Shown here: one piece after another, positions 1 through 6,122 of the stretch
Numbering within the stretch: the first letter of the stretch is position 1
How the letters are laid out: each line of letters begins with the position of its first letter
NCBI GenBank assembly: GCA_040905475.1
Contig: JBBDRM010000130.1
Span: 55,579 to 91,036 of the forward strand
Direction: 5' to 3'
DNA from: Actinomycetota bacterium
GTDB lineage: Bacteria > Actinomycetota > AC-67
DNA: 35,458 nucleotides
Program-made: the position numbers and the translations under genes
Notes under the pieces: model-generated
The model's database searches: none
What the model was told of the DNA's origin: nothing
Seen by the model: the letters and a program-made list of their open reading frames with translations, nothing else

Positions 1-529
1 CTCCGCCGGCTTGGATCGGCCGCGGCACGTTCCGCGCTTCGCGGATCCGGTAGTACCGGCCTTCGAACGACGGCGTCTCCTCGGTGAACATCGAGCGACA
101 GATGTGCGCCGCCTCCTCCAGCCGGTCGATCCGTTCGCCGGCCGAAGGGAAGTCGAAGCCGAGCGCGTCGTGCTCGACGTCGTACCAGGCCGCACCGAGA
201 CCAAGGATGGCGCGTCCTCCCGTGATCACGTCGAGCGTGGTCGCTTCCTTCGCGACGAGCGCAGGGTTCCGGTAGGTGACTCCTCCGACGAGCGCGCCCA
301 GCCGCACCCGCGAGGTGCGCGCGCCGAGCGCACCGAGGAGCGTGTACGCCTCGAGCATCGGACGTTCGGGGCCGCCGAGCGGAGGCAGCTGGTAGAAGTG
401 GTCCATCACCCAGACCGAATCGAATCCGGTCTCCTCCGCGGCGACCGCCATCTCGACCACTTTGCCGAACAGTTCGGTGTCCGGCGCGTCGAACGTGAAG
501 TTCGGGATCTGGAGCCCGATCTTGCTCAT
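1..529 (-). CDS. LLM-class F420-dependent oxidoreductase, 3' end beyond the window
   Basis: The reading frame opens with MSKIGLQIPNF and runs off the left edge after 176 codons. It is a luciferase-like monooxygenase (LLM) barrel of the kind that usually uses coenzyme F420 in actinobacteria. Family marks seen are the N-terminal beta strand, the VAAEETGFDSVWVMDHF segment near residue 30, the RLGALVGGVTYRNPALVAKEA stretch around residues 80-100, and LGLGAAWYDVEHDALGF. The substrate cannot be told. Its ATG overlaps the stop of the selenoprotein-like gene upstream (ATGA, 526-529), so the two are probably translated together. There is no good ribosome binding site of its own apart from an AGGGGG stretch a few bases upstream. 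F420 rather than FMN use is inferred from the family, not proven. Confidence 0.88.
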   Translation of the reverse strand, partial: MSKIGLQIPNFTFDAPDTELFGKVVEMAVAAEETGFDSVWVMDHFYQLPPLGGPERPMLEAYTLLGALGARTSRVRLGALVGGVTYRNPALVAKEATTLDVITGGRAILGLGAAWYDVEHDALGFDFPSAGERIDRLEEAAHICRSMFTEETPSFEGRYYRIREARNVPRPIQAGG

Positions 530-1062
530 GCGTCCCCCTTGTTCAGTGCCGCCATTATCTCCTCGAACGGCGCGTGATCCGAAACGTTGCCGTCCATGTG
601 CTGGTAGCGGATCACATCGCCGGGCCCGATCACGAACGTCGCGCCGAGCTGCTTCGGGCGCTTGCCGAGCCGGTGCTGGCGCTTCCCGGCGGCGGTGGCC
701 TTGAGGACCCCGGCCGCGGTCTTCGGCCCGGCGAGCTCGTACCAGCGTCCGTTGCGGAGCGACGCGATCTCCGCGGCCTCGCCGGCCTCATCGAGGAGGA
801 CGGGGAAGCCGATCCTCTCATCGTCGATGAAGGAGCGCGCGTAGCGGGCGTCCCCTGTGCCGACGGCAACGATCTCCGCCCCTTTCTCTCTGATCTCTTC
901 CTCGTGCCTGCGCAACTGCGAGGCGTGGTACCGGCAATGCAGTCACCCGAAGTGGCGCAGGAACACGACGACGACGGGGCGGTCGGCCCAATAGTCACCG
1001 AGGCGATGCTCCTCGCCGTCGCCGTCGGCGAGCCTGAGTTCGGAGAGGGCTTCGAGATCCAT
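526..1062 (-). CDS. Selenocysteine-containing AhpC/TSA-like (PRXL2/SelU-type) protein, copy B
   Basis: This is a 178-residue thioredoxin-fold protein if the TGA at 943-945 is read as selenocysteine. Residues 1-39 end in VVVVFLRHFG, the strand that leads into the active site of AhpC/TSA-type PRXL2 proteins, where homologues have C-x-x-C. Here the first position is TGA (residue 40), followed by L-H-C43-R. The frame then stays open to the real stop at 526-528, with the family's C-terminal QLGATFVIGPGDVIRYQH block. Copy A just upstream is a diverged paralogue with TGA at the identical position. A hairpin 18 nt after the TGA fits a bacterial SECIS. TGA is an ordinary stop elsewhere in the window (for example lhr), so general reassignment is unlikely. 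A conventional caller would wrongly report two short ORFs. The role is inferred as thiol/peroxide redox chemistry; the substrate is unknown. The selenocysteine machinery is not in this window. Confidence 0.85.
906..942 (-). promoter_or_regulatory. Bacterial SECIS-like hairpin of copy B
   Basis: Eighteen nucleotides after the TGA the mRNA can fold as GCCUCGC-AGUU-GCG(C)AGGC: seven base pairs with one bulged C and an AGUU tetraloop. The loop begins 25 nt after the TGA and has G as its second base. That agrees with the known bacterial SECIS rules (stem-loop directly downstream of UGA, G among the first two loop bases). The stem differs from copy A on both sides while pairing and loop are kept. 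Function is inferred; folding was done by eye. Confidence 0.65.
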
Positions 1063-1071
1063 CGCACGCGA

Positions 1072-1077
1072 AGGATA
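1072..1077 (-). promoter_or_regulatory. Putative -10 box of copy B (TATCCT)
   Basis: GCTATCCT lies 9 nt before the ATG of copy B. The same octamer lies 8 nt before the ATG of copy A. This suggests that the duplicated unit carried its own promoter and that the mRNA is leaderless or nearly so. No convincing -35 box is seen and there is no Shine-Dalgarno sequence. Confidence 0.35.
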
Positions 1078-1091
1078 GCCCTTCGAGTCGT

Positions 1092-1637
1092 TCAGCCGCG
1101 TTCGAGGTCGCGATCGGTCAGGGCTGCGAACACCTCTTCGATCGGCGCGTGGTCCACGGTCGTCACATCGATGTGCTCGTACCGGACGGTGTCGCCCGGC
1201 CCGACGACGAAGGTCGCGCCGAGCTGGAACACACGCTTCCCGGCCATGTGAACCTTGTATCCCGCACGACGCGTCCGCATCGAGGCGCGGTACGTCTTCG
1301 GGCCGAGCACGTTCCACGCGCTCCCGCGCTTGACGCTCGCCGTCTTCGCCGCGACGGCATCGTCATCGACGAGAACCGGGAAAGGGATGCTCTCTTCCTC
1401 GACGAACCCGCGCGCGTAGCGTTGGTTACCCGTGCCGATCGCGACCACGTCGGCGCCCGTCTTCTTGATCTCGTCGTAAGCGTCGCGCAACTGCGCGACA
1501 TGCTGCCGGCAGTGCAGTCAGCCGAAGTGGCGCAGGAAGACGAGAACGACCGTCCGGTCGGCCCAATAGCTGCCGAGGCGATGTTGCTCTCCGTCGGCGC
1601 CGGGCAAGTTGAGGTCAGACAAAGCAGGGAGATCCAT
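1092..1637 (-). CDS. Selenocysteine-containing AhpC/TSA-like (PRXL2/SelU-type) protein, copy A
   Basis: This is a 181-residue thioredoxin-fold protein if the TGA at 1518-1520 is read through. The N-terminal part (MDLPALSDLNL to VLVFLRHFG) ends at residue 39. TGA is residue 40, followed by L-H-C43-R-Q-H-V-A-Q-L, giving a U-x-x-C motif in place of C-x-x-C. The rest carries the family's IGTGN, FPVLVD and QLGATFVVGPGD segments. Copy B lies 29 nt downstream and is clearly homologous along its whole length, at roughly half identity by eye. The duplication is therefore old, and the TGA has been kept in both, which argues against a pseudogene or sequencing error. A perfect 7-bp hairpin follows the TGA. 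Expected role: redox enzyme of the peroxiredoxin-like 2 group in the cytosol (no signal peptide). Peroxidase activity is not established by sequence. Confidence 0.86.
1482..1517 (-). promoter_or_regulatory. Bacterial SECIS-like hairpin of copy A
   Basis: Eighteen nucleotides after the TGA lies GUCGCGC-AGUU-GCGCGAC: a perfect 7-bp stem (1499-1493 with 1488-1482) and an AGUU tetraloop (1492-1489). Distance to the TGA and loop sequence are the same as in copy B, although the stem bases differ. This is the expected place and form for a SelB-binding SECIS element. Not tested by folding software. Confidence 0.68.
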
Positions 1638-1645
1638 CGCGGCGC

Positions 1646-1655
1646 AGGATAGCGT
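1646..1655. promoter_or_regulatory. Compact divergent promoter core between copy A and lhr
   Basis: Only 24 bp separate the ATG of copy A (1637) from the first ATG of lhr (1662). On the minus strand TATCCT (1651-1646) is 8 nt from the copy A start. On the plus strand TAGCGT (1650-1655) is 6 nt from the lhr ATG. The two -10-like boxes overlap by two bases, so the transcripts would be leaderless and would compete for polymerase. No -35 elements are obvious. If lhr instead starts at GTG 1722 the spacing is wider. Confidence 0.3.
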
Positions 1656-1661
1656 CGCCGG

Positions 1662-6122
<4,461 letters not shown>

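Follow-up and report, generated by a model that had tools for sequence, protein, structure and literature searches.

Two adjoining genes for predicted UxxC selenoproteins related to PRXL2 and SelL in an actinobacterial genome

Organization of the locus

The window, that is, the whole 35,458-nucleotide stretch of DNA that was analysed, comes from a draft Actinomycetota genome (4.24 Mb, 97% complete, 4.4% contamination). Two adjoining minus-strand genes, here called A and B, are each interrupted by an in-frame TGA and are accompanied by the following features.

1..529, minus strand: 5' part of a gene for an F420-dependent LLM-class oxidoreductase, whose ATG overlaps the stop codon of gene B (ATGA)
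526..1062, minus strand: gene B, predicted UxxC PRXL2/SelL-related selenoprotein of 178 amino acids, with U40, C43 and a terminal TGA stop
905..924, minus strand: bSECIS hairpin of gene B, positioned as in gene A, with an AGUU loop and one stem bulge
943..945, minus strand: putative Sec codon (TGA) of gene B, codon 40
1072..1077, minus strand: TATCCT -10-like box of gene B, 9 nt before the ATG, a putative leaderless-type promoter
1092..1637, minus strand: gene A, predicted UxxC PRXL2/SelL-related selenoprotein of 181 amino acids, with U40, C43 and a terminal TGA stop
1482..1499, minus strand: bSECIS hairpin of gene A, with a 7-bp stem (GUCGCGC/GCGCGAC) and an AGUU loop
1518..1520, minus strand: putative Sec codon (TGA) of gene A, codon 40
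1646..1651, minus strand: TATCCT -10-like box of gene A, 8 nt before the ATG, a putative leaderless-type promoter
1662-6122, plus strand: large helicase gene, Lhr-like as judged from its own sequence alone, divergent from gene A

The two genes are 29 bases apart and their products share 56% identity, the stretch FLRHFG-U-LHCR (TGA read as U) being fully identical. Each contains exactly one internal in-frame TGA, and a scripted examination of the whole window found no further in-frame-TGA site of the A/B type. An earlier, sequence-only reading of this DNA had placed the TGA at residue 40 of both genes, with the second cysteine of the motif (Cys43) kept, and had given joined translations of 178 and 181 residues; all of this was borne out, and the strand, which it had left unstated, is the minus strand. 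Its further claim that homology to the family extends to both sides of each TGA agrees with the Pfam AhpC-TSA matches (8-153 and 7-153), which exceed the gathering score in A and B and span U.

Homologues and origin of the pair

Homologues were sought in public genomes and in 397 genomes of the same phylum. Among the fetched loci, TGA occupies codon 40 in 68 distinct sequences, A and B included, which come from many independently assembled genomes of Actinomycetota, Myxococcota, Thermodesulfobacteriota, Acidobacteriota and others; this recurrence goes far beyond chance. Homologues with cysteine in the same column were also recovered, so that the U/C-aligned relatives for which the sequence-only reading had advised a search do exist. 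A homologue in a Myxococcales metagenome-assembled genome (L114:3947-4540) has two in-frame TGAs in a SelL-like UxxU arrangement (FLRHLR-U-LA-U), and the frame of a Tectomicrobia Sec homologue (L100:2325-2821) is split into two overlapping pieces, through either a frameshift or an assembly error.

Phylogenetically, B groups with the sole copy of a sister genus (support 100/98) and A with copies from Acidimicrobiia and elsewhere (99/83). A sister relationship of A and B, as expected of a recent tandem duplication, is rejected (AU test, p = 0.0004). Since A and B are not sisters, the pair appears to be old, or A to have been acquired, rather than to stem from a simple recent tandem duplication, and the two genes are likely to represent separate lineages of the family that have both kept Sec. 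The tandem duplication with retention of both U residues proposed from the sequence alone is therefore upheld as to the retention, but the genes are not closest relatives and a recent duplication is rejected.

One possible history is that B is the lineage's own gene and that A was gained horizontally beside it from an Acidimicrobiia-like donor. This is a tenable alternative that we do not favour: the best tree, with A among Acidimicrobiia-type copies and B with the sister-genus copy, and the rejected sisterhood both speak for it, but a single clade uniting both genes with the sister-genus copy withstands the test (p = 0.28), and A and B have in common the box GCTATCCT at a near-equal distance from the ATG. 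The shared box and spacing fit an old tandem duplication after which the sister genus lost A, and the presence of the box ahead of both ATGs leads us to lean towards this old duplication.

Several Cys forms sit inside Sec clades, a nesting that suggests Sec-to-Cys changes within the family. A survey for tandem pairs covered 123 loci, 90 of them with at least 1 kb on either side; among these 90, a second adjacent copy was present only in loci holding the window pair, which agrees with the rarity claimed earlier for tandem selenoprotein genes. Two unlinked TGA copies occur in three genomes of the phylum sample (G081, G140 and G236). A genome with two distinct Sec enzymes is a useful starting point for asking why a cell would keep both.

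Protein family, fold and redox centre

Both proteins score above the gathering score of 27 bits for PF13911 (AhpC-TSA_2), with 55.6 and 57.2 bits, and their RxxG[CU]xxCR motif and alignment with human prostamide/PGF synthase (PGFS, PRXL2B) likewise place them in the PRXL2/AhpC-TSA_2 group. The NCBIfam model NF040769 (SelL-related) matches them over the full length with 117.2 (A) and 107.7 (B) bits, 3-12 bits short of its curated cut-off of 120 bits; two close Sec relatives also fall below this cut-off, and a UGA homologue from another actinobacterium exceeds it (134.9 bits). An AlphaFold2 model of B, computed with 34 homologues, has a mean pLDDT of 95.5. Among PDB entries, human PGFS/PRXL2B ranks first in both the fold comparison (TM 0.80/0.87) and the profile comparison; ResA-type thiol-disulfide oxidoreductases and PrxQ/BCP proteins come next, and structural similarity to AhpE was also seen in the PDB fold search. 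U40 and C43 align with C44 and C47 of human PGFS. With the model and the profile search both nearest to PRXL2B, and with the redox residues superposed in this way, A and B are predicted to be UxxC PRXL2/SelL-related oxidoreductases and not canonical peroxiredoxins. The SelU/PRXL2 type suggested earlier is thus retained as to PRXL2, by profile and fold, but not as to SelU, the nearest curated bacterial model being SelL-related.

It is unlikely, in our judgement, that A and B are strict Sec peroxiredoxins, with U40 as peroxidatic residue and the reduction of H2O2 or alkyl hydroperoxides as main role. The AhpC-TSA match above the gathering score and the structural likeness to PrxQ/BCP proteins and AhpE point in this direction, but the canonical motif PxxxTxxC/U is absent from both proteins, and PGFS and the ResA-type CxxC proteins are equally near or nearer. 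Moreover, alignment with mycobacterial BcpB pairs C43 with the peroxidatic Cys and U40 with the Thr of TxxC, and this placement of U40 at the Thr position disfavours a canonical peroxidase role. Taken with the position of U40 and C43 on C44 and C47 of PGFS, it indicates that U40 is most likely a thioredoxin-like attacking residue. Of the peroxide or thiol redox role put forward in the sequence-only reading, the oxidoreductase type is thus kept as probable, but a canonical peroxidase is disfavoured.

Expression and neighbouring genes

No clear ribosome-binding site was seen upstream of A or B. Of 76 homologues, 26 have a TANNNT element 6-10 nt before the ATG; shuffling predicts 2.7, and none of 2000 shuffles gave more than 9. 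At other distances before the ATG the element shows no enrichment. This spacing, together with the TATCCT boxes, suggests that A and B have leaderless transcripts. The start of A is separated from that of the divergent helicase gene by 24 bases, so that the putative promoter box of A lies inside this gap.

The LLM oxidoreductase gene, which leaves the window toward an assembly gap, is a possible operon partner of B. A conserved operon with an F420 oxidoreductase is absent from the other loci; a different LLM gene, in the opposite orientation, adjoins the sister-genus copy, and the loci compared have no conserved gene neighbourhood around the homologues. We regard as highly speculative, and quite improbable, the idea that A and B are a fixed, non-redundant selenoenzyme pair (as a heterodimer, for example, or with each acting on the other), long adjacent and with separate leaderless promoters, which together with the F420-dependent oxidoreductase of the overlapping gene makes up a selenium redox system linked to F420H2.

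Predicted selenocysteine decoding of the in-frame UGA codons

In both genes, a hairpin lies just 3' of the UGA with a G within the first two loop bases, as expected of a bSECIS element. It starts 21 nt past the first base of the UGA, its stem extending over +22..+39, and most homologues also have an AGUU loop in the hairpin 3' of the TGA. Taken singly, the hairpins of A and B differ from synonymous recodings with p = 0.06 and 0.07 only, so that the case for the hairpin rests on the family, in which a gain in stability over such recodings is seen for 68 Sec sequences (mean z-score -2.15) but not for 25 CxxC sequences (mean z-score -0.005). The loop overlies the codon of Leu50, which is TTG in 55 of the 57 Sec forms with Leu compared with 7 of 22 CxxC forms (Fisher p = 3.5e-9; as related sequences are not independent, p-values of the Sec/Cys comparison are indications only). 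CxxC relatives inside Sec clades (L053, L054, L057 and L156) use CTG or CTT. The Sec/Cys comparison serves as a clear-cut natural experiment on the bSECIS, with UUG fixed under the loop and freed once Sec is replaced by Cys.

The selenocysteine machinery, which the sequence-only reading had put forward as a check, is complete in the source genome: selB (332 bits, cut-off 242) and selA (427 bits, cut-off 268) share one contig, selD (405 bits, cut-off 125) lies on another, and a tRNA-Sec with a UCA anticodon scores 74.7 bits. With an in-frame UGA conserved against Sec and Cys homologues in addition, these hallmarks of a bacterial selenoprotein are present. Downstream of the UGA, purifying selection is seen between A and B (dN 0.47, dS 0.88) and between B and the sister-genus copy (dN 0.29, dS 1.11), and the homologues run on past the TGA site, where the decay that would have spoken against Sec is not found.

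A reading of the TGAs as ordinary stop codons in pseudogenes or split genes is very improbable: the standard code does call these codons stops, but the same TGA recurs in 68 sequences, selection continues downstream, the bSECIS constraint is confined to Sec forms and the Sec machinery is complete. Sequencing error as the source of the TGAs is ruled out by the family-wide TGA, the hairpin, the selection and the machinery, and the earlier contention that neither a pseudogene nor an error accounts for both genes therefore holds. Weaker still is a genome-wide reassignment of UGA to an ordinary amino acid, for which no supporting point was found and against which stand the terminal TGA of A and B themselves and the presence of tRNA-Sec with its machinery.

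The source genome has two tRNA-Sec genes on one contig, 9.2 kb apart (C96:70099-70187, L009, and C96:79295-79385, L010). Their D arm, anticodon arm and 3' end are identical and their variable arms differ; in L010 the first acceptor pair is a C-C mismatch. Only the L009 type occurs in the sister genus, whose second match is a tRNA-Ser. In another genome (G006), which also carries a normal tRNA-Sec, a tRNA (L190) exceeds the Rfam tRNA-Sec cut-off and is called tRNA-Cys (GCA) by ARAGORN. Two further AhpC/TSA-type genes with an in-frame TGA occur in the source genome, one (L021:3-900, contig C42) with an SWUGCR motif, resembling known UGC-containing Prx-like selenoproteins, and the other (L205, contig C109:11300-12400) with an RGDWUPYC motif. 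A search of the source genome for a formate dehydrogenase selenoprotein yielded nothing above the cut-off and no match carrying an in-frame TGA.

Proposed mechanism

The reading of the TGAs of A and B as Sec codons is well supported, and Sec is accordingly expected, by inference from the sequences, in the proteins themselves. In the proposed mechanism, SelB and tRNA-Sec would translate both genes through the UGA, guided by the bSECIS hairpin, to yield thioredoxin-fold oxidoreductases with a U40-x-x-C43 redox centre. The selenolate of Sec40, at the start of helix 41-52, would attack an oxidized substrate such as a peroxide or a disulfide. Cys43 would then resolve the Sec40 intermediate by forming a selenenylsulfide, and the enzyme would be reset by a donor of the thioredoxin type. 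Sec insertion, the fold and the motif position are supported by the comparative evidence above, while the catalytic cycle and the type of substrate are proposed by analogy. To the reading as a whole, namely Sec insertion through SelB, tRNA-Sec and bSECIS into PRXL2/SelL enzymes with a U40-x-x-C43 centre, encoded by an old pair of genes with their own leaderless-type promoters, we assign a probability of roughly 0.87.

Comparison with known systems

The nearest curated bacterial family is the SelL-related redox protein of NF040769, which A and B match over the full length, yet with scores below the cut-off. Among proteins of known structure, human PRXL2B/PGFS (PDB 9us9 and 9usa) aligns with A and B along the motif R-[RH]-x-G-[C/U]-x-x-C-R; it differs in having Cys for Sec, an identity of 21-25% and a eukaryotic lipid substrate. 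Vertebrate SelU/PRXL2A belongs to the same PRXL2 (AhpC-TSA_2) superfamily and, like A and B, has the UxxC arrangement. Sec peroxiredoxins (PxxxTxxU) have the AhpC/TSA fold in common with A and B, but their Sec is at the opposite end of the motif, and A and B lack PxxxTxxU.

Prx-like UxxC/UxxU selenoproteins with the PF00578 domain are among the predicted prokaryotic families in three reports (PMC9312934, PMC13188914 and PMC2398784), the name Prx-like 1 being used in PMC2398784. By description, A and B resemble these Prx-like thiol:disulfide oxidoreductases in domain, in UxxC motif and in having Sec first. The parts of the three reports that were consulted describe no tandem pair of the Prx-like UxxC family, unlike A and B, nor was one reported in the partially covered literature that was searched; marine reads are reported to contain adjoining selenoprotein genes that belong to different families (PMC2398784). 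Standard-code gene calls end at these TGAs, and a selenoprotein family that is widespread in Actinomycetota is thereby easily missed. The general outline of the enzyme family was known before; the unusual feature here is that two old, distinct members adjoin.
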